A stretch of DNA of 64,000 bases from Thozetella sp. PMI_491 (taxonomy: Eukaryota; Ascomycota; Sordariomycetes; Chaetosphaeriales; Chaetosphaeriaceae). The translations under genes and the position numbers were made by a program. The notes beneath the pieces were generated by a model, which was given only the letters and a program-made list of their open reading frames with translations, did not search any database and was not told where the DNA came from. The DNA lies in contig MU270020.1 of assembly GCA_021432635.1 (NCBI GenBank), forward strand, positions 124,001 to 188,000, read 5' to 3'. This document shows, piece by piece, positions 11,548 through 32,309 of this stretch. Position 1 is the stretch's first letter. Each line of letters opens with the position of its first letter.

Positions 11548-14500
11548 TGCCTATGGACTCTCGGTGATCTCGGGTAGAAGCAAGCTGCTAGAGTTTGGTA
11601 GGGTGGGGACGAGAGGGCACGAAGGACCTTCACTTCGGCACCGAAGTGGGGACGGCTTAAGGATTGCACTTCAGCGGAGGGGGGTATCGGGCATTTGGGG
11701 GGGGTGTCCTGTGGCCGAATGCAAGGGCGAGGAGAGGCGGGAAAGACTTATATAAAAGACAGACGGCAAAGTCAAGCGAGTGCATCGCCCCTGGTTTCCG
11801 CTGCACCGATAGCGTGGCTTGCCCGCACGTCACTGCCACGGACCCCTCGGCCCTTTTCTCGCCTTCTCCTTAGCAGCCTCAACTCACCGCTGGGCACGCC
11901 AAGTGTCAATATCCCCCCTTATCTTGGGAAGGTTCCCATGGTTGAGAACAGGGGCAACGGCTAGCAGGCGTGGACGGACGGGCACGCGGACATGCGGGCT
12001 ATGCGGCCACCACTAAGATGTTTGCAATCGCTAGGTGCGCCGGTGTTGGTGGTTGGAGACTCCCGGTCAAGGAGGCGGCCAAGGGCCGGACGCAGGACGC
12101 TATTACTCTGTCCACGCCACACCGAGACATGCTGCAACAGTCTGGATGGCACCTTAGGCGGAGGGTGTACACGTGGGGGAGAGGGGTTCTTGCTCGCTCC
12201 TCGACGGTGGCACAGCTTGTATCATTTCCGGATGTTGGTCGTCCGGAGAGCTTCACGCGGTCCAGAATCGAACGACTACTCTATCCGCTCTCAGCGCACT
12301 AGGATCGTGGCCATCATGACTACGCGCGCCACTACAGCGGAGAAGATACTGTTCACCACGTGTCGGGCACGGCCTCACCAAGAACAGAGGGAGCTCCATT
12401 TCTCGGCAAGATCGCTAGATCATATTTACGCTAACAGTAGCTTAGGGCGATCGATAACATGGTCCAAGGTCCCAACGTGGCAGCTAGGGTACGGGGCTGG
12501 GAGAAAGGGGGGAGGTTTCAAACCACTTCCTTCTCCTGGCGTAGAAGGTAAGCAGCGCTCGTTCTTCCAGAAGTTGTGAACTTTGGGTGAGCTAGAGCAT
12601 GCAGGCCGACAAGCCATTCCATAAACAGGGGCAGTCTAGCTGGGCTTGCCACGCAGCTTGCAGGGGGCCAAGGCATCGAGACCGAAAAAGGTGATTAAAA
12701 AAAAGGGCTACATACTGCACAGAGACAAGCATGGGCTTCCAGCCCGACGCTTTTCGTCAGAAGATAGCTGATTCGCGTATGTAAAGCACCAACCTGCGTT
12801 GGCTGCCCGTAGCCGAGCCGTTCGTCTCCTGCCGTGTTTACCTGCCGTCGTGGGACACTGCAAGACCCAGGTAGCCGGGTATCCCGTGTCCGTTGTGCGA
12901 CACGGTAAAGCAGTACGAAACGACCATCTCGATTAGCTAGATTCGCGAGCCCGCCAGTCGACACGGCTGCAATATGAGAGCGGCTGACGCAAGCAGGTCG
13001 GCCCGCTGTCCCTCTCACCCTTCGTGGACCCCTGCCGGAGCCTTGCCAAACACACCCGGTACTTGTATGCGTTTCTGCGGACAATGCAGCGGAAGGTCTG
13101 CTGAACATCACGCGCCACATAGCTGCTGCAAATATTGCCCGGCCAAATCTGGCTCAAAAAAGTACCATATTCCTGTTCGGGTCAACGCCAGCGAGGCACA
13201 ACCCCCCCGTGTAACGCTCCTGGAGTATAGGTGTAGAACCTAGCAGGCCTAGGGCAGCCACCCAGTCAGGTCGAAGGGGTCAAAACACCCGTGCCCGCAG
13301 GTCGCCACGTTGAGCCCTGGCAAGCTCAGCAGGGAGATTCCGACATGTGCGCAATTTGCAGTCCTGGGCGATAGTACATGCAAGTGCCTATATTTCCGAG
13401 TGGAGGGCGGGGAAGGTAGCGGGAAGGGAGGGGGAGTAGCAAGGCTCACCGTGGTCAACCATGGTGACATGCTCGCTCTCGCGCAGCTGCAGCAAGATCG
13501 ACGCGCGCATGTCGAAACCGGCAGCTTGCCTACTGATATCGGCGTCCAAGCACCCAGCGCACATGGTCACATCGCTGCCATATGGTCGCGAACGCCTCCC
13601 AATACGACCTATGCTGAAACCTAGCGGGGAGCTGTCAAACAGCGCTGCCCGGCGCGCCATATTCCATGCCGCCGCCGCGCCGCCATGCTTACCTCTACAC
13701 GACCTTCTATCCTGGATGGAAGGCCAGCGGGCAAGGTAAGAAGACCTAAGGGCAGCTGTCATCCATCGGTCGCCGCGCAGCCACGAGCAGAACCCGGTAG
13801 TCGCGCTGCTCTGCCGTGCCGCCGCATGGCGTCCACGTGCAGACGGCTAGCCGTCAACTTCAAACAAGACGGAAGCAATGTTTCCACGGGTGCGATACCC
13901 TCCACGCCGAAGCTTCTGCCAATGGCTAGCCCGGAGCGCCACCTGTTGGTTGACAGACACACATAGCCTAGCAACAGCTTCCGTCCGCACGAAACAAAGA
14001 GCTGAGCCGCCGCACGACCGCCCTCTGAGATATGACAGGGAGGTGTATTCGTGGCACAAGGCGAATAGGGCAGGCTCCATGGGCCGAACAGACGCTGCAT
14101 AGAACATGCCAGGAACAACGAGAGAACAGTCGTCAGCCACGGCTGACCAGCAAGCGCAATGCTGGGGGTAGGCTAGGGGTTGAGATCAGTCTCCCGGTGA
14201 GCATTACGAGGTGGTTAGTGAGATGAGCGGCCCAGCCAGCTTCCCCGCCTGCCTCGCCGTCCCCTTGCATCGAAGACCACGTATCGGATACATCCGCACT
14301 CGCGGAGGGGTTGCAGGAGGTCGCAGATTGAAGGGAAGCAGTGCGCCTTGCAGGGAGATAGGCCTAGAGATCATTGGGCGGGAGCCAAACGAGCCCACCA
14401 ACTGGCCACGGGAACCAGTTGCTCCGGTGAGCGTCGAGAGTTCTTAGAGGGGAACCAAATATTGGCGGCCGCAGCCTGGCTTGGTCTCTTCACTGCATTC

Positions 14501-14971
14501 CTATACCATCTTTGACAGACCGACGGTGCGTGCCTGCCGACTCGACTATTACTCTTCTGCTCCCGGACAAGAGCGCGCAAGGGCTGTTGGCATTGCAAGT
14601 AATGTGAAGGTAAAAAGATCCGGAAATAAAATGAGACATGCACTGCATCGACAAAGAATATGTTGTGACTTTCGCCGATCTAAGTTACAAAACGACTAGA
14701 CATGGTTGGTATCTCGCGCCCGCTAAAAGGCCTTCGCTTCCTAACAGCCATGGGTATTCCTCAGCCACGCGTGCAATTCCAAGCAAGCCAACCCCCGTCC
14801 CGTCCCCTCCTCCTCTGCTCGTATGTAACCTATGCATACTCCTTCATATCATGTCACGGCCCAGCCCCCTCTCGCCCTCCTGCTCCTGCCCAACGCGTCA
14901 AGCCGCCTTGCATATTATGCATAGTGCATATGTGCTTCCACCCGTCCGCATCGTCTTCGCTTCGCCGAGGC
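11548..14971. other. Long gene-poor spacer
   Basis: About 3.4 kb between the PTH11-like gene and the small membrane protein. I find no frame with a recognisable domain, no convincing ATG plus splice-consistent extension and no complete tRNA. The sequence is GC-rich and unbiased between strands, as expected for spacer or long UTR. Confidence 0.45.
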
Positions 14972-15364
14972 TCAGGTCGTCTTCTTCATGGCGGTGGCGG
15001 GCTTGACGCTCCGTCCCTGCTGCTGTTGGTTGTTGACGTAAAAGTAGATGCCAGCCGACACAACGCCGAGCATGACAACATTTCCTGTGCGAGTAGTAGT
15101 CAGGTCTCTGGTCTCTCTCTTCGCCCGGGGGTTTTGTGCAGCGCCGTTGGCGGTAAGCCACTTACCGAGGACGAACTTGCCGACTCCTCCGGCCACTTCG
15201 ATCACGCCTCCTAGCACGCTTGTGATCAGGTTGACGAAGTCCTGGAAGAAGTGGATGATGGCCAAGAAGAACGAGCTGATGAGGTTGTAGATGGTCCCAA
15301 AGATGGTGAGGAACATCTCGTAGACCGAGTGAAAGAGGTCGCCGATTGCAGTGGTGATAGCCAT
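14972..15364 (-). CDS. Small conserved hydrophobic membrane protein
   Basis: Tiny protein starting MAITTAIGDLFHSV with a long run of amphipathic/hydrophobic segments (FLTIFGTIYNLISSFFLAIIHFF, LITSVLGGVIEVAGGVGKFV) and a final helix VVMLGVVSAGIYFYV, then a polar tail QQQQGRSVKP. An 81-nt stretch (15085-15165) begins GTAAGT, has a CTGAC branch-like site and ends CACAG, so it is almost certainly an intron. It is a multiple of three and stop-free, so unspliced mRNA also stays open (130 aa versus 103 aa spliced). Splicing joins KFVLG directly to NVVMLG, removing a polar Arg/Thr-rich insert unlike the rest. From memory, similar short proteins occur in many moulds without known function. It is probably in an internal membrane. 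Confidence 0.75.
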   Translation of the reverse strand: MAITTAIGDLFHSVYEMFLTIFGTIYNLISSFFLAIIHFFQDFVNLITSVLGGVIEVAGGVGKFVLGKWLTANGAAQNPRAKRETRDLTTTRTGNVVMLGVVSAGIYFYVNNQQQQGRSVKPATAMKKTT

Positions 15365-16083
15365 CTTGGCGGTGGTATTTCAGGTCACTTCTTGGCGTGT
15401 GACGCTCCTTAGACGTGCTTTCTAGCGGGAAAGAGGCTGTGGATGTAGCCTGTAGTGGGGTGTTTGTGTTTGTGTCTGTGAAGTTGAGATGCGATGCGCT
15501 TAAGTGGGATGGTCAGACCGGTCTAATCTTTCGCGAGGAGATTGCATTCGAGATAAAAAGCGGATTTGTGTCATCTTCGGTTGCGGGAACTGCTTTTCTT
15601 TAAAGAGCTGCCTCGAACAAGAGCCTTGGTGGTTGTATGGCATCACCACTAGTTCATGACGTCACTGATGGTCACTTGAGGCGCGGTCTAGCAGTGTCGC
15701 ACAAAAGGGCGGGACGGTACAGCGTCCTAGTCGCGTCGTCCCGGGGCTTTCTTTCCGTAAGCGGCAGCATACGGGCGCCGGTTGGCTGGAATGCCTTCCG
15801 TTGACCTCAGCGAAGCCGCTAATCGAGATGGCGTGCCCTGCCGTCCAGGGCGGAGGTACATTCTCCAAGCACGAACTGCAGTGCAGGCCACGTCAACGTC
15901 ATGGAAATTGCGCAGAGGTGGTCATAGTCCTTTGCCATTAAGCTTCAGTCTAGATGCTGCTAACTGTCTGGGATACGCCCGAAATCCAACGCTGTGAAAA
16001 TGCCAAGCTACGCACAAGGGTATCTCATTACCATTAATCCCAATTACGCTATATTAAGCCCGGAGATCTGGGTTTCGGCCTAA
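15365..16083. other. Spacer upstream of the small membrane protein gene
   Basis: About 720 bp. It holds the promoter of the minus-strand small gene and the 3' UTR of the protease-like gene beyond it. I see no further coding or repeat feature. Confidence 0.5.
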
Positions 16084-17961
16084 TTATACCACGGGCTCCT
16101 TGCCCTTTCCTTTGGAGGAGGCATCGGTTGGTGGTGACGGAGGACGTGCCGTAGGCTCCTCGGGGACGGCAGCGAGAGACCGAGGCGTTGTGGTCTCCCC
16201 AACGTCAGAGAGAGGGCTCGGCTGTCGGGGAGGGAGGGGCGGGAGCGACGCCTCGTTGATGGGTGGAAGATAACTCTCGGTTCCCGGTGCAAGAGTGCCT
16301 CGGGCACCCGTCATCTCGGGCTGCGGCGCCGTTCCCGGCGCACTTTCCTCATCCACTTCCTTCGACTGGGCGGCGGCGTTCTTCTTTGCCAAAGCACGGC
16401 GCCACAAGATAATACCGGCGACGATGGCAATCAGGCCAATAATTCCAAAGGTAATACCGACACCGAGGGCAGTCTGCAACCAGGGGCCCGAAAGGTACGT
16501 GTCGTCATCATCGTTTCCGCTACCGCTAGAGGTGCCGGTGGAAGTGTATCGTGAGCTCGATCCTGTGCCGGTGGGGTTACAGTTCGCGGTACACGTTTCG
16601 CGGCAGTAGTATGAGCTGGTGTCGCCGCAGTACATGGTGGCGGATGGTGCAGCGGCCCCGAGACCGGAAAAGGCCACGACGTTTGAGGTTCCCGGGTTGG
16701 ACGCGGCGAACTTGACAGGCGCGATCGCTACCTCCAGATTCGACGTGTCGAATACGAGATACGACCGGCGAAGGAGGCTGGCACCGATGTTGTAGTAGTC
16801 ATATGAGCTAGACGAAGATCCGTTCTGGATACCGAAGACGCACATGTCGGGGGTCGACTTCATGTAGTAGGCATACGTCGGGCTGAGCACCGAGGGGCTC
16901 AAGATGAGGTCCTTGAGCTCCACATCCAGCACCGGGCCGTCAGCACCAGCAAGCTGCAGGTTGAATCGAGCGCTACCCGAAGCGTTGCACGGAATTGTCG
17001 CCTTCCGCACCGTGCGGTTGTACGATGCCCCCGCTGCGGTCCAGATCTTGCTGGTCAGGCTGGAAGGGAAGGTCGACAGAGCCTCGCCGGCACTGATGGC
17101 CACCGGGAGCGGGAAGTCGTTGCCGGTCAGGGGTGTCATGGGGTTCGAGGACTTGTCGGTGGCATTGATGCCGTAGATCTCGATGCCGAAGTTGTAGCTC
17201 ATGACGTAGCTTGTCGACTGGTATCCGGACAACCGGGTCAGGGTGCCTTCGAACCGGGATGTATCAATGGCGCCGAGCAACAGGCTGCCGGAGGTCCCCT
17301 CGGCATCGTCGAGCCACATGCTGTAGGCCGCGGTGGGGATCTTGCCTGTCTGGACCAGCTTGTCCAGAAAGTGGACGTAACCGTAGCGGCTGCTCGACGA
17401 CGACGAGTAGGAAGAGTAGGACCGGTTCTGCCCGAGGCCAAGAGCACCGATGTAGGCCGGCGCATCAGAGACCAAACCCATAGGATAGTTGTCCAGCGTG
17501 AGATCCCCGACCTTGAGCGTATCGGTGAAGTTCGACCCGCTCACATAGTCCCCGTCTGCAGTATAGGCACTGAAGCTCGAGTACTTGACGTTCGCATCCG
17601 CGTAGGTCGAGGATTTCGTCTGGTTGAAGGAGCCCCATTTGCAGAAGCCAGTGTAGCGAGAGTAGTAGTCATCGTCTGTGTCGTAGCTCGAGTAATAGTT
17701 GGTATCGCAGTACGAGCTTTGGGCGTCCGGGACCCAGGTATCACCCATGGACTGCGTCAGGACCACCTGCATCGACTGCGGCGGGGTTCCGACCGAGATG
17801 TTGGCGACATAGACGAAGTCCCCGGAGCGAAGTCCGAGCTGTTGGCTGTCGCGTTGTGTTATCCCTTCCAAGTTCCCTTCGAGGCGCGAAAATGGCAGAT
17901 GGACCTGGGCGTTTGCGACACCCAGGCCCAGCGAAATGAGGTAGCGAGTGGAAGTCTTCAT
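16084..17961 (-). CDS. Membrane-anchored pepsin-fold protein lacking both catalytic aspartates (pseudo-aspartic protease)
   Basis: Single-exon 625-aa protein with the overall plan of fungal yapsin/OpsB-like aspartic proteases: signal peptide (MKTSTRYLISLGLGVANAQ), pepsin-fold lectodomain, Ser/Thr-rich stalk, one transmembrane helix (about 498-520, ALGVGITFGIIGLIAIVAGIIL) and a 100-residue Pro/Ser/Glu-rich cytoplasmic tail. The fold is evident from YVANISVGTPPQ, TSGSLLLGAIDTSRFEG and LVFDTSNLEVAIAP. However, the first catalytic motif, normally DTGSSDLW, reads TQSMGDTW (residues 69-76), and the second, normally DSGTSLTYLP, reads SAGEALSTFP (290-299). Thus both catalytic Asp are replaced (Thr69, Ser290). 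The frame is intact and codon use is ordinary, so it is probably a functional non-protease rather than a decaying gene. Its role, perhaps binding or wall sensing, is inference. Confidence 0.9.
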   Translation of the reverse strand: MKTSTRYLISLGLGVANAQVHLPFSRLEGNLEGITQRDSQQLGLRSGDFVYVANISVGTPPQSMQVVLTQSMGDTWVPDAQSSYCDTNYYSSYDTDDDYYSRYTGFCKWGSFNQTKSSTYADANVKYSSFSAYTADGDYVSGSNFTDTLKVGDLTLDNYPMGLVSDAPAYIGALGLGQNRSYSSYSSSSSSRYGYVHFLDKLVQTGKIPTAAYSMWLDDAEGTSGSLLLGAIDTSRFEGTLTRLSGYQSTSYVMSYNFGIEIYGINATDKSSNPMTPLTGNDFPLPVAISAGEALSTFPSSLTSKIWTAAGASYNRTVRKATIPCNASGSARFNLQLAGADGPVLDVELKDLILSPSVLSPTYAYYMKSTPDMCVFGIQNGSSSSSYDYYNIGASLLRRSYLVFDTSNLEVAIAPVKFAASNPGTSNVVAFSGLGAAAPSATMYCGDTSSYYCRETCTANCNPTGTGSSSRYTSTGTSSGSGNDDDDTYLSGPWLQTALGVGITFGIIGLIAIVAGIILWRRALAKKNAAAQSKEVDEESAPGTAPQPEMTGARGTLAPGTESYLPPINEASLPPLPPRQPSPLSDVGETTTPRSLAAVPEEPTARPPSPPTDASSKGKGKEPVV

Positions 17962-19002
17962 AGCGAAGACGAAATAAAAATTAAGGTGAGGATAAGGAAA
18001 CTACGCCGCGATCATAGCCCTACTACGTGTGCGAGGAAGCGGCCGAAGACGATGCGAAACGAAAGAACGAGCGTGATGCCGACAGGCAGCTAGAGGGGTG
18101 ATGAAGGAAAAGAAGCAGAGGCGAATCTCGAAGAAAAATCCAGCAGTTGGCTACCCAGGCAAGCCAAGCTAGTCGGCGCTGCCGTGGTGCCTGGCCGTTG
18201 ACTCTTTGGTGGAACACGAGCCATCGCCAAGCAGCGCTACTGCGCTCGGCCGGGCGCCGTGATTGGCGGCTGGCGGCGCGGGAGATGAGCTGCGCCGCAC
18301 AACCAAGGGGCCTGGCCTTGCCTAGGTCTGCGCGCCAGTTGGCAACCTTCCCCTTTCCGGGTGCGTCTGGGCAAAAATAAAGTGAATAGGGTGTTTGGCC
18401 CCCTCAGTCGGGGCCGTAGTCTTGCTGTTGCGACGGCCTGCCTGTCCTTGCACCAATCTCGGCCCGGTCTGTTGGTTCCCAAGCCGAAATTTCCATTTAT
18501 ATATATGGAGTAAGGGGACCCTAAGAACTTGGCAGCAGATAGCAGAGGAGCGGCAGGAAATGGTCTGTAGAGGCTGTATGCTAAGCAGTACCGTAGCTCT
18601 GGGACTGGATATATCGGGTGTACCGTAAAGGTGTATAGTAAAGGGAGCGCTGTCGCGTGTTCGGTGTGCCTCGTATTTTAGGAGTATTTTAGGGTGTAGT
18701 TGTTCGCCCCTTCAGATGGGCAGCCTTATCCGGCTCGTGTTCGCCGCAAAGAATGGGACCTAGTCGGGAGGCACCTTCCGCCGTGCTTCTGCCGTGGTAT
18801 GCAGCCACCCGTACCTAGCTTCAGCCACAGCTGTCATGTCCCGCCTGGCCCCGCATCCGGGGACGCCTCACCCAATTGCTCAGCTCCTCAGCTCGGATGC
18901 TTCATGTCGACGTCACTTGCTCTACCTGCAGGCCTGCATGAGAGCGCCAGCAATGCACAGAAGCAAGGGCGAACATTTTGGAACACCCACCAGACAAGAA
19001 CC
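17962..19002. other. Divergent promoter region
   Basis: About 1 kb between the starts of the protease-like gene (minus) and the glycosidase-like gene (plus). A TATA-like TTTATATATATGG lies at 18496-18508. An open frame upstream of 19003 extends the glycosidase reading frame to 18700 but begins at a non-ATG codon and is compositionally poor, so I treat it as 5' UTR. Confidence 0.5.
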
Positions 19003-22000
19003 ATGGAGTCATCGCCTAGCCAGCCGGTCTCGCTAGCGCACCGCAGCCGGGCCAAAGCCCCGCAGCAATTGGTCGCCGGCGCCAAGAGCAGTCCGAACCC
19101 ACTCAGCTTCCCGAAGAGCTCGGAGCCGTTCAGCGAGCGGCTCTTCCAGAACCCAACGTCCGAGTATCGCGGCTGCCCATTCTGGGCCTGGAACGCGAAG
19201 CTGGACCAGGCGCAGCTGCGCCGGGAAATCGATGCCTTCAAGCAAATGGGCCTTGGCGGTTTCCATATGCATGTCCGTGTCGGGCTCGACACCGAATATA
19301 TGAGCGACGAATTTATGGATGCTATTAAGTCTTGTGTTGATTATGCTGAGGAGAAGGACCTCCTGGCTTGTCTATATGATGAAGACCGTTGGCCCTCTGG
19401 CGTGGTGGGTGGGAGGCTAATCCAGGATTACCCGGAGCACAAGGGCAAGCACATCCTCTTCACCACCGTTCCCTATGGTGTCATTGGCCCTGCCCCCGGA
19501 TGCGATACCAGCTCCGCCGGGGGATGTCGAAGTGAGAATGGCTACCTGCTATCCAAATACTCCATAACCCTCGACGAAGGCGGCAACCTGGTGAAAGCAG
19601 AGCAGATTGGAGAAGACGAACCGGCAGACGGCGATGTTTGGTATGCCTATGTCGAGTCGAACCTGTCATCGCCCTGGTTCAATGGACAAACCTATGTCGA
19701 CACGCTGAGCAAGGAGGCTATTGCTAGGTTTGTCGACCTGACGCATGAGGCGTACAAGAAGAAGGTCGGAGACCGATTCGGATCGACTGTGCCCTGCATC
19801 TTCACGGACGAGCCTCAGTTTGCCACCAAGACTCGGCTCCCGAGCCCGCAGGCCAAGCATGATACCTTTCTCCCTTGGACGGACGACTTGCCAGCCACAT
19901 TCAAGGCCAAATATGGACCCAAGGCCGAGTTGGTGGGCCGCTTGCCGGAGCTCATCTGGAACCTCGCCGGCCGGCGGCCCAGTCTCACCCGCTACCAGTA
20001 CCATGATCACGTCTGCGAGAGATTCGTGTCGGCCTACATGGATCAGCTCGGCGAGTGGTGTAAAAAGAACAACATCATGCTGAACGGACACCTGATGGAG
20101 GAGCCGACCTTGTACTCGCAAACAACGGCTCTCGGCGAAGCCATGCGCTGCTACCGGAACATGCAAATCCCGGGCATAGACCTGCTCAACGATTCTGTCG
20201 AGTACAACACAGCGAAGCAGGCTTCCAGTGTTGCTAGACAGAATGGTATCAAGGCATGCGGGTCGGAGACGTACGGATGCACGCACTGGACCTTCACGTT
20301 TGAAGGCCACAAGGGATGTAGCGACTGGCAGGCAGCGCTGGGAATCACCTTTAGGGTGCAGCATCTGTCGTGGATGAGCATGGCTGGCGAAGGCAAGCGA
20401 GACTATCCTGCCTCGATCGGCTATCAAAGCCCTTGGTACAAGGAGTACGGCTATATCGAGGATCACTTCGCACGGGTCAACCTCGCTCTGACGCGGGGCC
20501 GTCCGGTCACACGTGTGGCTGTCATCCATCCTATCGAGAGCTACTGGCTGTGTTTCGGCCCCGAGGGTGCTGGGGACGAGATGCGGTGGCGAGACCAGGT
20601 CTTTGCTGAGCTTACAAACTGGCTACTACACGGACTCGTCGATTTTGACTTCATCAGCGAAAGTCTCCTTCCCGAACAGTTCGGCGGTTATGAGGATGGG
20701 AAGCTGAAGGTCGGTGCATGCGCTTATGACGTCGTGATTCTGCCCAACCTACGCACCATTCGGTCGACGACGTTTGAGATCATTGTGCAAGATTTCGCTC
20801 GCCATGGTGGTGACGTGGTCGTCGCTGGACAGATTCCCACCTTGATCGACGGCAAGCCTCCGCTCGATAGCTTCCACGCCGCGTTCCGTGGAGGGAACAT
20901 CATCTCGTGGGATAGGGACCTTGTGCTATCCTATCTCGAGCCCTACAAGGAGCTGAAGGTCGCGTCCTCGACCACGCCAGCTACCAGTCAGAAATTACTG
21001 TATCAGATGCGGGAGGATACTGGCGAACGCTATGTGTTCATCTGCAACACAGACCGGAATGAGGCATTCGAGGGGACGATCCTCATCAAGGGCTCGTGGC
21101 AGGTCTACGTCCTCGACACCCTGTCAGGCTCTCAGGAGTGGACCAAATCGTGGCGCAATCGCGACTGGACCGTCTTTCCACGTAAGCTCGACGGCTGCGA
21201 GAGTCTCCTCCTGAGACTACTACCTGCAGAGGGGCAATTGGCGGAACGTATTTGCGAGACAGGCTTGGACGTTGCCTCGCCAGTCATGTCGACTGGAATT
21301 GTCATCAAGGAACACGGCGTCTCGCTCTCCGAGCTCAACGTCCTGCTCCTTGACCAGGCGCTATATCGGGTGGACGACGCCGGTTGGACTGGTCCGCAGG
21401 AGATCCTTCAGGTGGACAACGACATTCGGGTTAAGCTTAAGCTGCCACGCAAAGGCTCGGCATGGAAGCAGCCCTGGTCCATCACTCGCAAGGAGAGGGC
21501 CCCTAAAGCACATGTATCCCTGAAGCTTGCATTCTCGTCTGAAGTGGACTTGGAGACCCCCACGTATCTAGCAATGGAGTTGATCGATGATGTCAAGATC
21601 ACGCTGAACTCCAAGGCTGTGGAGGTTAGCACAGCATCTGGTGCGCAAGGGTGGTGGGTCGACGAGGCAATATCTCTGATCAAACTCGACACCGGCCTCG
21701 TGAAGAAAGGCACAAACACCCTAGTGCTGGACTTTCCGTTTGGAATACTGACTAATATCGAGAGAATATACCTCTTGGGGAATTTTGCTGTCGCCATAGA
21801 TGGGCCGAAAGCCACGATCCAGCCTTCACGCAGCGCCGTCACCTGGGGCGATATCACGACGCAAGGGCTGCCATTTTATGTCGGGAACGTGGAATACCAA
21901 TTCGAGTTCAGCCTCGAAAACCCAGCGCGCGCGGTCCTATCCGTCCCGCACTTCTCCAGCCCCGTGCTGAGAGTGGATAAGCTCTCGTCGGCTTCTGGAG

Positions 22001-22307
22001 CGTGGGAGAAGATTGGCAATATCGCGATCCAGCCGCGGACGCTCAGCCTCGGGCGCCTCCCTGCAGGGACTCATGTCTACCGTCTGACTGCCTTTGGGAA
22101 CCGATTCAACTCATTTGGACACGTTCATCTGCCGGACTGGGTGGGCGGATGTTGGCCTGATATTTGGAGAAGTGAGTTTCCTGCTTTTTCTTGCCATCGG
22201 ATGGCGGCTAACACCCGGGCGTAGCTAAGGAGTGGGCGTGGGTTGACGGGTATAATCTCAAGCCCATTGGAGTCTTAGCAGCCCCCACGATTCTGATCAC
22301 TTCCTGA
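19003..22307 (+). CDS. GH106-like (alpha-L-rhamnosidase-related) large glycoside hydrolase, cytosolic
   Basis: Large protein of about 1083 aa in two exons (19003-22171 and 22225-22307; the 53-nt intron is GTGAGT...GCGTAG). Splicing replaces an unlikely tail with TKEWAWVDGYNLKPIGVLAAP, which reads like a true C-terminus. The N-terminal half has the pattern of the bacterial and fungal 'alpha-L-rhamnosidase-related' TIM-barrel proteins: YRGCPFWAWN, an MGLGGFHMHVRVGL strand-turn, LLACLYDEDRWPSG, FTDEPQF and GSETYGCTHW. The C-terminal half is beta-rich, with a jelly-roll-like segment FYVGNVEYQFEF. The start at 19003 (MESSPSQPVS) has no signal peptide, suggesting intracellular action on imported oligosaccharides. 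Subfamily and substrate are uncertain; GH106 relatedness is my best recall, not a computed match. Confidence 0.75.
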
Positions 22308-24673: not shown

Positions 24674-27109
24674 TTAACCGAACCAGAACCTTTTCCTTTT
24701 CGGCATCGCCTTTGCAACCTCCGCCAACTGAGCCGCTGGAACACTGATCTCGACATGATCCACCCGATATGCCACTCCATTCTTCCATTCCAGTAAAAGG
24801 AGTTCCCATAGCACCTGTTCAAGGTACTCGGCCCGATACAGCAGCAGATACTCGCTCGGCTGTTCCCCACACTTCTCCCAGATCTCCTCCGCATGCGCTG
24901 CCGTCGTAGTATGCATGAAGTATTCTCCATCTCCCATCATGACCTTAAGCGCCTCGTCTCCGCCCAGGCCCTTCAGCCTTAATGTAAGCACAATGCCCTC
25001 TATCACTAACAGCTCTGGGCCATGAATCCCATCTCTCACCTCTTGCAAACTTACCGCCCCGGTCACATCCTCGAACTCGAGGTCCCGCACCTTCAACGTC
25101 TCTATATCCCCCGACATGCCCTTCCACGGGTCTCTGTATCCGTCTTCCTGTTGCCACTCACCCAACACAACAAATTCTCCTTCGTCTCCACTTGCCATCT
25201 CCTCAACCTTTAGCCACGGCACCCAAAACGGCCTCCCATCCTCCTCCACCTGCCAGTCGGGGTAGCCGGGCGGTGTTGCTGCACCCCTTTCCAACACCCC
25301 ATCATAACCAGCCCACGACCAGCTGGGAAAATCTGGGTCTCTCGCTACTGGCTCTGCAACCCTCCACGCGAGCGCGAACAGGAAGTCGCACAGCGGTAGG
25401 CCAGACCGGAACTCCGTCCCGAACCCAGCCGAAAGCAACGAGACAATAGCGTGGAATCCATTGAGCGAGTCGGAGAAGAAGCTGAGGTGGCGGGACTTGT
25501 ACTCTTCGAGAAGGGAACGGTATATGGCGACGCGCCGTGAAGGAAGGCGCATTGGCCCGTCAGAGGCTAGAGTGGAAAAGTCAATCCGAAACTCTCCCTG
25601 GGGCATTTCCGGATCGATTAGGAGATTGGGAAGCTTGTCTGGATCCTCAGGAACTGGCCTAGTAGGGAGATGGGCACGGAGGACTTCAGAAGTCTGATAT
25701 TCCGCACACTCGAAGTAGACCTGGGACTGCGTGAAGAACAGCTTCCGGCGGGAGAGGAGAGCCTCTTGGAGCACCCAGGCGCGGCTGCTCCAGGGTGACT
25801 GGCGGGTGTAGGCTGCAAGGGCAGGGAGGGTGGAAACGAGGATGGTCGATTCATCGAGAGTACAGCGGAACTGTGAGATAGAGCGATCGATACTGACGCC
25901 TGAGAGGCCAGAGAGCGCGGAAGTACCGGAGAGGTTGATGATGGTGACGTATGCGGAGCGATAGATCGATGCCATGATGTTTATCTGGCTGGCCTTATGC
26001 TCTTCGGACTCTTGATCGATGCAAAGAGAATCAACCCAAAGGTAGCGAAAGCCAAGAGTGCGGACGACGGTCATGGCGTCTTCGATAGTGGCTGGTAGAG
26101 GCGGAAGTGGGCTCCAGAGGGCGACGCTCGCTTGGCGGACGCGGCCCCAGACGTAGCTCAAGGCGACGTAGTGAGAAGATATATTTGGATCGTAAGGGAC
26201 AACCATACGGTCTTGGACATCAACTAGCCGGATCCGGGAGAGTGTCTCCATATCGTGCTCAGGGGTGCATGATGGGTGGTTGGAGACACAACCGCGAATC
26301 CAGGAGCCAATTAGCGCATAGTCTGGTCTCGCAGTGACAAGAGAGCAGGAAAACTCGTTTGCTTGTGCTTCTCCGTCAGGTGCTTGCTGATAGCTGGAGA
26401 TTCCCATACGAATTCCCAGATTGTGCACCTGCACATGGTCTGCACTCCCGGTCAAGAACAGACTCCGCTTGTAGCCTGACAGATCGCCCATTTCATGCAT
26501 CATCAAACTGACGGCATCCATCCTATTTGGCATTTTGACGGTTGTGATAAACGGGGTGATCACTCTCAAGATGTACAGCTCCCGCCAGCTCCCCGGCCGA
26601 AAACGGAGAGCCGAGGCCAGCAACATCTTGCACACGGGACAGTTGCTCAGAAACTGGACACCGTCTCCGCGGCCGAGCCAGGCCGCGATATCGATGGCTT
26701 CGCCATACAATGGAGGAGCTCGCATGGACTCAGGCATATGTGGCTGGAGAGTTTGGTAGGGCCTGTTGAGAAGATTGGGAATGTAAAGATCGCGGCACCG
26801 CTTGCAAGTTTGATCGCGATGTTTGTCCCTGGCAAACTGTGCATGTAGGGAGTGGAGGAAGTCGTCAAGGGAGGGATCATCTGTGATTATGTCGAGTCCG
26901 AAACCCAGGTCGAGCCCTGGTGTAGGGCAGTCTTTTATCAGATGCGAGAAAGTCCTACACTGGAAGCACCATGGCAGGGGCGGCCCTTCGATGGCCGCAA
27001 GACTCTCTTCGGAAGATGGAGTCGGCACAGAAGTTGGTTTATGGCCAAGCAACTTGGGGTTGCGTCTTGGCAGCTCCTTGATTGAACCGTGGAATGGACG
27101 TATCTCCAT
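24674..27109 (-). CDS. HET-domain (heterokaryon incompatibility) protein with N-terminal CCHC zinc-knuckle-like motif
   Basis: Single-exon gene; the first in-frame ATG is at 27109 (MEIRPFHGS), giving 811 aa. The HET domain begins at about residue 313 with HYVALSYVWG, followed by IEDAMTVVRTLGFRYLWVDSLCIDQ and SIYRSAYVTIINLSG, ending with SPWSSRAWVLQEALLSRRKLFF at about 465. HET domains act as death effectors, probably TIR-like, in non-self recognition in moulds. Upstream there are three Cys clusters: C48-X2-C51-X4-H56-X4-C61, an exact CCHC knuckle spacing, C102/C105 and C157/C160 (NCPVCKMLL). The C-terminal third is unannotated and Trp/Glu-rich. The gene is divergent from the NLR at 28075, the arrangement expected for a sensor/effector pair, though pairing is inference. 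Confidence 0.92.
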   Translation of the reverse strand: MEIRPFHGSIKELPRRNPKLLGHKPTSVPTPSSEESLAAIEGPPLPWCFQCRTFSHLIKDCPTPGLDLGFGLDIITDDPSLDDFLHSLHAQFARDKHRDQTCKRCRDLYIPNLLNRPYQTLQPHMPESMRAPPLYGEAIDIAAWLGRGDGVQFLSNCPVCKMLLASALRFRPGSWRELYILRVITPFITTVKMPNRMDAVSLMMHEMGDLSGYKRSLFLTGSADHVQVHNLGIRMGISSYQQAPDGEAQANEFSCSLVTARPDYALIGSWIRGCVSNHPSCTPEHDMETLSRIRLVDVQDRMVVPYDPNISSHYVALSYVWGRVRQASVALWSPLPPLPATIEDAMTVVRTLGFRYLWVDSLCIDQESEEHKASQINIMASIYRSAYVTIINLSGTSALSGLSGVSIDRSISQFRCTLDESTILVSTLPALAAYTRQSPWSSRAWVLQEALLSRRKLFFTQSQVYFECAEYQTSEVLRAHLPTRPVPEDPDKLPNLLIDPEMPQGEFRIDFSTLASDGPMRLPSRRVAIYRSLLEEYKSRHLSFFSDSLNGFHAIVSLLSAGFGTEFRSGLPLCDFLFALAWRVAEPVARDPDFPSWSWAGYDGVLERGAATPPGYPDWQVEEDGRPFWVPWLKVEEMASGDEGEFVVLGEWQQEDGYRDPWKGMSGDIETLKVRDLEFEDVTGAVSLQEVRDGIHGPELLVIEGIVLTLRLKGLGGDEALKVMMGDGEYFMHTTTAAHAEEIWEKCGEQPSEYLLLYRAEYLEQVLWELLLLEWKNGVAYRVDHVEISVPAAQLAEVAKAMPKRKRFWFG

Positions 27110-28074
27110 GGTTGGTGATGACTGCAATAGTCACAATCTTCGTTGCTGTAAGTTGACCTACAGGCCCTGCGCTCTCAGGCGGAATGCCGCTAAGAACGCC
27201 CGGCTGTTGGGTTCTTATGTACCCCGCGAAGGTTCCCACGTGACTTCGAAGTGCTCTCCAAGTTCTCTCGTTACTGTGGCAGTGTGCAGAGCTGAACATG
27301 CAAATATCACGGGACCTACACAACTCCAGGCAGTGCTAACCACATAGGGACCTAGGACTTAGGCATCAGGCAATCTGGGAACAGGGCGGAAGAACAAGGG
27401 GAGCGCAACTATATTTACGTCAACCCCGCCGCTTCGCCTTTCGTGGATGCACCCCTTCCTCCTAAATTGAGACGTGTTCTTGCTGACCCTTTCAGCAGGT
27501 GTAGTAGGTACTAGCTCGAAGGTTCACGAAATTTCACAACATCTAGCAGTTCCACATAGAAATCCGCCTTCGGTCAGTTTATAACCACATCTCGAGGGAC
27601 TGCTAGATTAGCCATCCGCTGAGAGAAATCATTTTGCGTGCAACTTACTCGCCATTTCCTGTTGTGTTTCCACCAAGTCGCACGGTTCAACTTTCTCCCA
27701 ACGCTTTCCCATCGCCTGATTCCCATGATATTGTTGTATGTATACCTAAAACTAGATGTAGAGCACTGAAGTCGCGCAACGGCGGATGCGAAACCCGGAT
27801 CGCAAGCGATAGGCTGGATCTTGCTGAAAGCCTTCATGGTTTGTGATTCGTTACATGCAGCACGGTGGTAGATTCGAAATGGTTGGCTACAGCATGACAA
27901 GGCGTCAGTTAGGTTTCAGCCTGCTTGCAGGCTGCCTCTCCCCTCTCGATTTCAATTCGTGAAAATTTCGTTCTTCTACCAGACCTAGCATTTACGCTCT
28001 CCGAAATATATTGGCTCGATTGCCCCCGTATCGTTCTCAACTTGCACCTGCAGCTGATTCAATCCCCCGAGGCG
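27110..28074. other. Divergent promoter region between HET and NLR genes
   Basis: About 965 bp between the two start codons. It contains short open frames on both strands without recognisable domains. I see no gene. Confidence 0.5.
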
Positions 28075-31000
28075 ATGCGCAAACTATTTTCGCGAAAGAA
28101 ACGGCATCCAGTGGTCGACGTGCCCCAACGAAGCACGGATTCGGGTTCAGTCAATCTGCCACCACAAGCCGAATCGGATCCCGGCTCGTCCGAGGTCCTC
28201 CCCGTCTCTTCTTTCCCGGAAGGAGTGAAATTACTCCACAACTGCCCGGACGCTGTCGTGGACATCTGCTTTGTCCACGGTCTGACTGGGAACCGCGACA
28301 ACACATGGACAGCTGACGGGCAGACCGCGCCGTGGCCAAAGACCCTCCTCCCGTCGAAGCTCGGCAACGCGCGTATACTGACTTTCGGATACAACGCATA
28401 TCTCATAAATAACGCAGCTCAGGATCGTCTCATCAATCATGCTAGCAATCTTCTAAAGGATTTAGCAGATGATAGAACTGAGTGCGATGCGTCATCTCGT
28501 CCTATCATTTTTGTGGCCCACAGCTTGGGCGGGATTGTATGCAAAAAGGCCCTCCTGCTCTCCCGCACTAGCCGCCAGAACCACCTTCGGAGCATATTTG
28601 AGAACACAAAAGGCATCGTTTTCATGGGAACTCCCCACAGGGGTGCTTGGATTGCGAACTGGGCCCAGATACCGATTTCAGCACTCGGTTTTATGAAAGC
28701 GACAAATCCAGCACTCTTAAACATCCTAAAGCCAGACGACGACCTGCTCAGGGACATTCGGGACCAGTTTGCTGAAATGATCCTAGAAGGAACTCACTCC
28801 ATGAGAGTCGCTTGTTTCTGTGAAGGGCTTCCGCTGTACAAAAGGCTCATGGTTGTTCCTCGAGACTCGGCCGCTCTCGACGGCCACGAACGATACACAA
28901 TCTCTGCCAACCACAGGGATATGGTCAGATTTGCCTCTGCGGAAGAGGCGGGATTCAAGCGATTAGTCGGAGAACTGAGCAGATGGATATCAGAATTAGG
29001 TGAAGAGGATCAAATCAATTTTCTAAGCCGGTTCAACTAACCATTCAAACATAGAGCCGCTAGAGCCGCCAGAGCCGTCGGACCCATCTGAAGCAGTACA
29101 GTTGTCGAAAGACTGCTTAGACTGCCTAAAATCTCTGGCTTATCCACAAATGTATAGTCGTTACCACGACATCGATCGCCCCGCTAATGGGACGTGCGAG
29201 TGGTTGCTTCAACACGAGACGTATAGACGCTGGGCCGCTGGCGATCGAGGCCTGCTCTGGATCAAAGGGAAACCCGGATCTGGAAAATCAACATTGATCA
29301 AAAGTGCCCTTGAAAATAACAAGGCAATGCGTGATGATCTCGTATTGTCTTTCTTCTTCCATGGCCGTGGCGATGAACTTCAGAGGACTCCCCTTGGCCT
29401 CATCCGCGCACTTCTTCATCAGGTCCTCGCAAAGGCTCCTTGGACACTGTCAGATCTCGTCGGTATCTTTAAGAGAAAGTGTAGCGAGATCGGTGAGCCC
29501 GGGGAAAAGTGGCAATGGGACCCTCAAGAGCTCATGGGCTTCTTTGAACTCTCTCTACCAAAGATCTTGGAGGCTTACTCGGTCTGGCTATTTATTGATG
29601 CATTAGACGAGTGTGGCGAAAGCAATGCAACCAGTCTTGTCAGAAGCTTCACTTCATTGCTCAGGGACCGATTGCCCCTTTCTAGCAGCTTAAAGCGGTT
29701 TCATATCTGCTTCGCATGTCGCCCTTACCCGATTTTATCTATTGATGATCATTTCGAGATCGCCCCTGAAAACGAAAACGATGAAGATATCTCGACCTTT
29801 GTGGAGACCTGCCTTTCTCAGGCCAACGTCCCTACGACATCGAAAATCTCATCTATGATCATCACCAGGGCTTCAGGAGTTTTCCTGTGGGCACGTCTTG
29901 TCGTGGACATAGCCACCCGTCTCCACTGCGAGGGCCGATCACTTGCTATAATTGCAACCCAAATACAGCGGATTCCTAAAGAGTTATACAGACTATATCA
30001 ACAACTTCTCAATACGATGGAAGAAGAGCGTCCAACCTCTCTAAAGCTAATTCAATGGATCTGCTTTGCCATGCGACCGTTATCGTTAGATGAAATGCGG
30101 TGGGCGATGGTTCTCGAGACAGGTTGCTCGTTTGGGTCATTGAAGGAATACGAAAACATCGATGAATGGATACCTGATAATGACAGGATGAAGAGGCGAG
30201 TTCAAACGCTGAGCTGCGGTCTTGCTGAGGTCACTCTATCATCCGATAGGCTGGTTGTCCAGTTTATCCACCAATCTGTTAAAGACTATTTCCTCAGCGA
30301 GGGCCTATTCTTGCTAAACAGGAGTCCAGCCTCAACCGACACAGTACCTGAAATGGCACACTTTCAAATATTCAGGATTTGCGTCGCCTATATAGCGATG
30401 GAGGAAATTTGTCGGTCGAAAAGCTACACAGACAACAAATTTCCATTCTTGCGTTACGCTACGACTTCATGGGTATCACACTTGAAAGCGAGCAATACCG
30501 AGAATATCCCGCACGAGCATCTGTTGGATTTGGTTGCTAAGCTATCTCCTACTTTTATGGAACATTGGGCGGCGGCCTACCATCAACTCGATCGTTGGTC
30601 CAGCAACTGTCCACGCCGAATAATAAAATTAGTTCACGTTATATCGAGATATGGAATTACTGGGTTGTTACTACCACTAATAAGTCAAGAAGAAAAACAC
30701 ATGGGTATTAATGTCAGGGATGGCGCTGGCTGGACGCCGCTGTCATATGCTGCCGAGAAGGGGCACGAGGGGTTTGCGGATCTCCTCATTACAAGCGGCG
30801 CTGAGGTTGATTCGAAATGTGGTGCCGGCCNNNNNNNNNNNNNNNNNNNNNNNNNNNNNNNNNNNNNNNNNNNNNNNNNNNNNNNNNNNNNNNNNNNNNN
30901 NNNNNNNNNNNNNNNNNNNNNNNNNNNNNNNNNNNNNNNNNNNNNNNNNNNNNNNNNNNNNNNNNNNNNNNNNNNNNNNNNNNNNNNNNNNNNNNNNNNN

Positions 31001-31693
31001 NNNNNNNNNNNNNNNNNNNNNNNNNNNNNNNNNNNNNNNNNNNNNNNNNNNNNNNNNNNNNNNNNNNNNNNNNNNNNNNNNNNNNNNNNNNNNNNNNNNN
31101 NNNNNNNNNNNNNNNNNNNNNNNNNNNNNNNNNNNNNNNNNNNNNNNNNNNNNNNNNNNNNNNNNNNNNNNNNNNNNNNNNNNNNNNNNNNNNNNNNNNN
31201 NNNNNNNNNNNNNNNNNNNNNNNNNNNNNNNNNNNNNNNNNNNNNNNNNNNNNNNNNNNNNNNNNNNNNNNNNNNNNNNNNNNNNNNNNNNNNNNNNNGT
31301 GGTGCCGGCCGGACGCCGCTGTCGTATGCTGCTTGGGCCGGGCACGAGGCGGTTGCCAAGCTCCTAATTACAAGCAGCGCTGAGGTTGATTCGAAATGTG
31401 GTGCCAGCCGGACGCCGCTGTCGTATGCTGCTGATTATGGGCACGGGGCGGTTGCCAAGCTTCTAATTACAAGCGGCGCTGAAGTTGATTCGAAATGTGG
31501 TGTCGGCCGGACGCCGCTGTCGTATGCTGCTGAGGAGGGGCACGAGGCGGCTGCGAAGCTCCTAATTACAAGCGGCGCTGAGGTTGATTCGAAATGTGGT
31601 GCCGGCCAGACGCCGTTGTCGTATGCTGCTAATGACGAGCACGAGGCGGTGATGAAGTTGCTTCAGTCGTCAAAGTCTCTAGCTCCGTATTGA
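28075..31693 (+). CDS. NLR-like STAND protein: serine esterase-like + NACHT + ankyrin repeats
   Basis: Fungal NOD-like receptor. The first in-frame ATG is 28075 (MRKLFSRKKR). Exon 1 (28075-28999) joins exon 2 (29055-31693) across a 55-nt intron with GTGAAG donor, perfect ACTAAC branch and CATAG acceptor; the frame is kept, giving about 1187 aa including an assembly gap. Domains: an alpha/beta-hydrolase (DUF676/PGAP1-like) with CFVHGLTGNRDNTW, nucleophile elbow VAHSLGG (Ser150) and GTPHRG; a Pro/Glu linker EPLEPPEPS; a NACHT NTPase with P-loop GKPGSGKST (about 380-388) and Walker B LFIDALDECG (about 487); a helical region; then 33-residue ankyrin repeats from about residue 860. Such proteins oligomerise on ligand binding and trigger death or defence. 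The intron lies between esterase and NACHT, so unspliced reading would split it into two proteins. Confidence 0.93.
30722..31691 (+). repeat. Near-identical 99-bp ankyrin repeat array (coding)
   Basis: Units begin at 30722, 30821, then after the gap at 31301, 31400, 31499 and 31598, exactly 99 bp apart. Each encodes one 33-aa ankyrin repeat of the form GAGxTPLSYAAxxGHEAVAKLL. The post-gap units differ at only a handful of bases, far more alike than normal ankyrin repeats, which implies recent duplication or gene conversion. Confidence 0.93.
30831..31298. other. Assembly gap (468 N)
   Basis: A run of 468 undetermined bases inside the ankyrin array. The flanking repeat phase (30821 to 31301) is 480 bp, which is not a multiple of the 99-bp unit, so the N count is probably an estimate rather than the real length. 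Confidence 0.98.
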
Positions 31694-32309
31694 TTCTATC
31701 TAGCATTCTTATTTTATCATAGCATTAACAGAAAGGAGTCTGGGGGCTGGGGAAGCTATATAGTTGCCAATTCTCTTCTAGAGCCTTCGAATCAGGTGAT
31801 TGAAATGGAGACATATCTTTCTGCACACCTGCCAGGCACAATTGATCTGCATACTCACTGCTCACAATTGTCGCCGAGTGGGGATACGAAACTGGTCTGG
31901 TAGTGTAGAAGACTTTATTTTCGAGCTAGTTGACTTCAATTACTACAAAACCCTCAGATGTGCCTTTCTTTATGCTCACAAGTGCGCGGCGTGGTACAGC
32001 TGGCTTCCTAGCGGGCGGTAATTTCCTACTGGCTAGAATACAGAGTGTGACGGGAAAGGAATGCAAGCAGCAGAGATGAAGAGACTAGAGGTTTAGCAAA
32101 GCGTCAACTTTGACATCCCACAGCAGGCAGTGCGAACTACGAGCTTAGTGAAGAGCACCTAGGAAGAGGTGTCGTGGAGGAACCCCCTGATTGGAGGTGG
32201 ACGTAGGTCACGTGTGGCGAAGGGGATCCAAAAACAATGCAGGCTGTCGGTTGACCGTCGCTCGACACAATAGAGCCTGACCCCCTGACAAGAGATTTAC
32301 CCAAAAAAT
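31694..32309. other. Spacer between NLR and ubiquitin hydrolase genes
   Basis: About 615 bp holding the NLR 3' UTR and the promoter of the next gene. No coding or structured element is seen. Confidence 0.5.

Follow-up and report, generated by a model that had tools for sequence, protein, structure and literature searches.

A candidate surface pseudoprotease with a membrane-anchored A1 aspartic-protease fold in Thozetella sp. PMI_491

The window analysed here, a stretch of 64,000 nucleotides from the genome of Thozetella sp. PMI_491, encodes a protein in which a pepsin-like A1 fold without either catalytic Asp is followed by a single transmembrane (TM) helix and a long tail. Judging from these sequence features, we put at about even the chance that this window protein is a retained pseudoprotease that works at the cell surface as a type I binding protein or receptor. 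The build recurs in the host genome: all seven A1-like proteins found to carry a TM helix and a long tail lack the first catalytic Asp, and the build was seen in none of the 58 loci that keep both.

Fold, active site and membrane build

The reading frame (Table 1) runs from an ATG at 17961 to a stop codon at 16084-16086. The earlier note on this DNA, which gave no strand, had described an uninterrupted frame of 1.9 kb, and 625 open codons are indeed found on the minus strand; in first-order Markov sequences matched for composition, a stop-free frame of this length would arise with a probability of about 4e-8. The aspartic-protease fold proposed in that note is borne out by PF00026, which spans the whole two-lobed domain (127.2 bits for a cut-off of 19.9, profile positions 2-315 of 315). 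The nearest solved structures are candidapepsin-5 (2qzx, E 1.8e-14) and the candidapepsin-type 1j71 (E 6.3e-14).

Table 1. Features of the window protein gene, in positions of the window
Feature	Position	Strand	Evidence or remark
Whole reading frame, 625 aa, uninterrupted	16084..17961	-	
Signal peptide, about aa 1-19	17905..17961	-	judged by eye
Short pro-like segment lacking a dibasic (Kex2-type) site, about aa 20-49	17815..17904	-	borders by eye
Pepsin-like A1 fold, aa 51-416	16714..17811	-	PF00026 E 1.2e-36; best PDB 2qzx
Degenerate first catalytic motif TQSMGDTW, aa 69-76 (Asp32 to Thr69)	17734..17757	-	paralogue alignment
Flap segment AYTADG; Tyr75 column is Thr	17551..17568	-	paralogue alignment
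Degenerate second catalytic motif SAGEALSTFP, aa 290-299 (Asp215 to Ser290)	17065..17094	-	paralogue alignment
Cys-rich juxtamembrane piece, four Cys, within Ser/Thr/Gly linker	16579..16629	-	
Single TM helix, about aa 498-520	16402..16470	-	19-residue Kyte-Doolittle maximum 2.72
Predicted cytosolic tail of 105 residues, including 20 Pro and 19 Ser/Thr	16087..16401	-	
PPLPPR in tail	16225..16242	-	SH3-ligand-like PxxPx[KR], may be chance

In an alignment with 12 paralogues, among them L015 which itself lacks the Asp, the two motifs align in every column with DTGSSDxW and D[ST]G[TS][TS]LxxLP respectively, so that Thr69 and Ser290 occupy the Asp columns and the loss of both catalytic residues, already read by the earlier note, is confirmed. 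The glycine of the first DTG has become Ser; Trp39 (in GDTW) and the second glycine are kept. The flap Tyr75 column holds Thr, with a Tyr one place earlier that makes a one-residue shift conceivable. Active A1 peptidases have both Asp in D[TS]G and the flap Tyr75, and neither trait is present here. Given the established A1 mechanism, these residues indicate that the window protein cannot cut by the known route. Sequencing error was rejected as the cause of the Asp losses, both motifs being several codons away from the common forms.

The first pair of basic residues does not occur before residue 319; RR, RRR or KR are found upstream of the fold in the four nearest paralogues (L004, L008, L017 and L063), in L004 within a separate upstream segment. 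Everything outside the two motifs had been described as intact, which does not hold for the flap Tyr75, the glycine of the first DTG and the dibasic site. Cys 85, 107, 325 and 374 occupy the positions of the two disulphides that are usual in A1 proteins, where they presumably pair, and the protein has eight NxS/T sequons.

Behind the fold follow a Ser/Thr/Gly linker that contains four Cys, a run of acidic residues, the TM helix, the string WRRALAKK and the tail, in agreement with the TM helix and tail of about 100 residues first noticed. The signal peptide and the topology were assigned by visual inspection and from Kyte-Doolittle values; the acidic residues before the helix and WRRALAKK after it suggest by their charges an orientation in which the tail is predicted to be cytosolic. 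With 105 residues after the TM helix, the C-end is not the tail-less hydrophobic one of the GPI type found in yapsins. PPLPPR in the tail is an SH3-ligand-like string that may have arisen by chance. No Pfam family scored above its cut-off in the part from linker to tail. Structure prediction of aa 40-425 without an alignment was unusable (mean pLDDT 28.3, pTM 0.18), and an open cleft is therefore assumed in what follows.

Retention or decay of the gene

Residue loss was compared over columns conserved in at least 80% of the 58 both-Asp rows, out of 67 A1 rows from this one genome; the window row was itself one of the 13 used to make the profile. The window protein keeps three of nine such residues in the active site, a count as low as in 0 of the 58 rows, and 17 of 19 elsewhere, as low in 26 of them. 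At 70% the figures are 4/11 in the active site (as low in 1/58) and 24/31 elsewhere (as low in 16/58), and at 60% they are 5/16 (1/58) and 27/42 (7/58). By this comparison, the loss does not extend beyond the active site.

GC3 is 0.74 over the whole gene and 0.81 over both lobes of the fold, compared with 0.61 for the L015 frame and 0.43-0.79 for seven other frames of the window. It amounts to 0.58 in the TM helix and 0.63 in the tail, where GC12 is 0.50 and 0.66; next to a flanking GC of about 0.56 (0.556 at 14001-16000, which contains a 170-aa ORF, and 0.559 at 17962-18700), this codon bias makes no constraint visible on the tail. The branch of the window gene is the longest of its five-row set, with 1.98 substitutions per column in a 26-row tree and 1.45 in a quick tree, a length that would also fit relaxed constraint. 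No close copy of the protein exists in the genome, the best match having 33% identity.

Since the frame is open, GC3 in the fold is that of coding sequence and the landmarks are kept, the fold appears maintained and decay of the gene is unlikely. The earlier proposal of a retained inactive protease stands as regards catalytic loss on a kept fold, the TM helix, the predicted cytosolic tail and the lack of clear decay in the fold, but constraint on the tail was not seen.

Aspartic-protease loci across the genome

A PF00026 search of the host genome (72.3 Mb in 157 contigs) gave 111 matches, which were reduced to 67 loci with duplicates and the non-A1 locus L035 set aside; L068 and L073, in which a motif or half the fold is missing, were dropped to leave 65 scorable A1 loci. 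Both Asp are present in 58 of these, only the second is lost in four (L041, L047, L051 and L072), only the first in one (L074), and both in two, the window protein and L015. As to their C-ends, 44 loci have no TM helix, introns behind the fold possibly concealing one in some of these, 17 have a hydrophobic GPI-like end, three have a TM helix plus a tail of at least 30 residues, and one (L072) has an unseen end, its extension showing no TM helix in frame. For L074, the C-end was set manually, using the exon that follows its intron.

Loss of the first Asp and the TM-plus-tail build fall on the same three of the 64 loci with a visible C-end, and neither occurs in the other 61 (Fisher p 2.4e-5 for 3/0/0/61, a test that counts paralogues as independent). 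This coincidence, seen in lineages that cannot all be joined in a single clade, strengthens the interpretation given in the earlier note. Catalytic loss alone does not entail such a build, because the four loci that lost only the second Asp have no visible TM helix (absent in three, end unseen in one). Two of these four, the close paralogues L041 and L047, look like TM-less pseudo-A1 proteins with DIS as first motif, a second Asp changed to Glu (ETG) and no Tyr75; L051 groups with them.

The Pfam-derived list is incomplete in that it missed four divergent kin of L074, namely L075 (C50), L076 (C18), L077 (C15) and L078 (C8); a sixth match to L074, at C8:512563, is the both-Asp locus L007. All four have, by eye, a TM helix and a tail, and all four lack the first Asp. 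The motifs of L074-L076 read STASP and DSTDP, those of L077 VSTTLSETW and DTSTP, and L078, though only weakly aligned, shows neither Asp. As they were found through similarity to L074, L075-L078 add members and not independent events; searches of the genome with L077 and L078 as queries gave no further members at E 0.01.

Between L075 and L076, rough values of Nei-Gojobori dN/dS are 0.11 (132 codons) in one lobe and 0.035 (172 codons) in the other, the latter at a dS of 2.6; of four comparisons with L074, three were saturated at synonymous sites and one nearly so. These low ratios, with STASP kept, indicate that the sister group L074-L076 is under purifying selection while the first Asp is absent in all three. 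Short EL-strings recur in the tails of L074-L077 (HELAGS, YELSGSD, FELPGS and HELYELP) and are possibly a docking motif.

Origins and relatives

In the main tree of 26 rows, from which the catalytic-motif columns were excluded, the window protein groups with L004, L008, L017 and L063 (support 97/93) and L015 with L007, L009, L010, L012, L038 and L043 (85/81). All ten of these relatives keep both Asp and have hydrophobic C-ends. The window protein thereby falls within the yapsin/GPI-type grouping, a label given to its four relatives from their hydrophobic C-ends alone, after which at most seven residues follow. An alignment of close homologues had been proposed in the earlier note as a check on the two substitutions; among paralogues of the same genome, the nearest keep both residues.

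A single clade of the window protein and L015 was rejected (p-AU 0.00039), as was one of the window protein, L015, L074 and L077 (p-AU 0.0016). Placing the window protein with L074/L077 was not rejected (p-AU 0.142), nor was placing L015 with L074/L077 (p-AU 0.142); all four values presume that the groups were chosen in advance of the tree, and they suffer from long branches, such as those of the window row and L077. In the quick 67-row tree, label changes were as few in 96 of 500 shuffles. Because a clade of the window protein and L015 was rejected, two independent losses of the Asp are supported by these trees and three only suggested, in both cases subject to the long branches.

Outside the A1 loci, L035 (G000:C83:55734-56195) was rejected as a relative since it matches the window protein in the linker/TM/tail part only. 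Its Ser-rich linker, TM helix and tail resemble those of the window protein (E 1e-7) and its ectodomain seems different; the likeness could be one of shared composition or of a swapped module. Of 59 matches obtained with the L015 protein, twelve likewise cover only its linker/TM/tail part (residues 338-559) and lie outside the listed A1 loci; the L015-like TM module, or at least a similar composition, is frequent in this genome. Among viral contigs, eight stretches matched a pattern and none of them encoded a relative.

Genomic neighbourhood

About 740 bp (17962-18699) separate the start of the window protein gene from a divergent ORF at 18700-22224, whose start is a mechanical ORF call and which matches GH106 alpha-L-rhamnosidases (E 1.5e-9); a shared promoter is possible. 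Further on, a HET-domain (heterokaryon incompatibility) frame at 24674-27127 (PF06985, E 9.3e-34) lies near a NACHT/NPHP3_N plus ankyrin frame at 29102-31693, which resembles a fungal NLR whose repeat end has been homogenised. HET and NACHT-ankyrin genes are pointers to a filamentous ascomycete. The repeat end of the NACHT-ankyrin frame consists of 3.6 alike units of 99 bp (88% matches, 31299-31650) and lies partly in the lowest-GC stretch of the window (0.379, 30001-32000). Neither Rfam, at gathering scores, nor ARAGORN gave any hit in the 64-kb window.

Relation to known systems

The closest parallel is PxAP9 of Phytophthora, described in the available text of PMC3116508 as a predicted inactive A1 protein with a signal peptide, no pro-part, one TM helix and, inside the cell, a long extension in which no Pfam domain is recognised; for this protein a role as peptide-binding surface receptor is suggested. 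The window protein has in common with it an A1 ectodomain without catalytic residues, one TM helix and a long tail, cytosolic by prediction from charges. PxAP9 is BACE-like, carries W39A and is called inactive through Y75F (PMC3116508); unlike it, the window protein keeps Trp39, the residue replaced in BACE-like proteins, has Thr in the Tyr75 column and has lost both Asp. The nearest kin found for it are GPI-type fungal A1 loci from its own genome, as opposed to the BACE ancestry that the text gives for PxAP9.

Among fungi, the Aspergillus niger proteins An11g09240 and An11g10270 share with the window protein an A1 assignment without conserved active sites and are described, in the part of PMC7804941 at hand, as possibly inactive. 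Yapsins and candidapepsins have the same fold and provide its nearest solved relatives, and yapsins are GPI-anchored as its nearest paralogues appear to be; the window protein differs from them by having no catalytic Asp, no Kex2-type site and a TM helix plus tail in place of a GPI-type end. Pregnancy-associated glycoproteins and Bla g 2, which the available text of PMC3116508 contrasts with the likely membrane-bound PxAP9, are A1 folds with substituted active-site motifs and are suggested there to bind peptides uncut. By analogy, an A1 fold without the dyad, such as that of the window protein, may still be able to bind peptides. FgAsp of Fusarium, an A1 protein regarded as a protease and reported to have TM domains (PMC11679831, as far as available), could be a counter-example or another case of a TM-build pseudoprotease. 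Pseudopeptidases in the accessible part of PMC11241649 belong to other families. In titles and abstract starts of the open-licence literature, a coincidence of first-Asp loss with TM plus tail in fungi was not found, which is weak evidence that its occurrence in separate lineages of one fungal genome is novel.

Proposed function and alternatives

As a retained surface pseudoprotease, the window protein would descend from a secreted A1 aspartic protease of the GPI-type, yapsin/candidapepsin-like branch. Both catalytic Asp, the flap Tyr and the pro-peptide processing site would then have been lost, and the GPI-type end would have been replaced by, or turned into, a TM helix with a Pro-rich cytosolic tail. 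Placed in the plasma membrane with a type I topology, both of which are deduced, the two-lobed cleft would hold a peptide or an extracellular protein and leave it uncut; the tail would relay cleft occupancy by recruiting cytosolic partners, for which PPLPPR is a possible docking site. Both ligand binding by the cleft and a signalling role of the tail are proposals. A broader suggestion, which we hold tentatively and consider rather doubtful, is that A1 proteases, secreted or GPI-anchored, have been turned into type I TM peptide-sensing receptors several times independently in filamentous fungi.

The same nearest relatives, both-Asp GPI-type loci of the same genome, would also suit a membrane-anchored decoy or regulator of active GPI-type A1 proteases, which would bind their substrates, inhibitors or pro-segments, or pair with them, and would use its tail for trafficking only. 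Decoy and regulatory roles are common among pseudoenzymes. Such a role would leave unexplained why separate lineages combine a TM helix and long tail with loss of the first Asp, unless all these proteins are decoys, and we regard it as unlikely. A slightly smaller probability is given to a structural or adhesive cell-wall protein with the A1 fold as a mere stable glycosylated scaffold. The eight sequons, the Ser/Gly/Thr-rich linker, the likeness of linker, TM helix and tail to the C83 protein and the little codon bias in the tail are in keeping with it, but it offers no reason for a 105-residue tail, and the C83 likeness is possibly compositional.

A decaying gene that is by chance still open would account for the long branch, for a best genome match of just 33% identity and for the weak codon bias in TM helix and tail; set against 625 open codons, the GC3 of the fold and a loss limited to the active site with 17 of 19 other landmarks kept, this is improbable. 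Very improbable indeed is that the window protein still acts as a protease through other residues. Asp74 and Glu293 lie near the lost positions in the sequence, and an active variant with one Asp, the plasmepsin HAP, reportedly exists; here, however, both Asp, Tyr75 and the glycine of the first DTG are lost together, and the Asp74 column is also Asp in near paralogues that keep both catalytic residues.

To our knowledge, few extracellular peptide or protein sensors have been described in filamentous fungi. If protease folds have repeatedly been disarmed and given cytosolic tails, they would form a concrete and testable set of candidate surface receptors, and a proposal so far made for one oomycete protein would be extended to fungi. 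The annotation "aspartic protease" in fungal secretomes may also cover proteins that are unable to cut.
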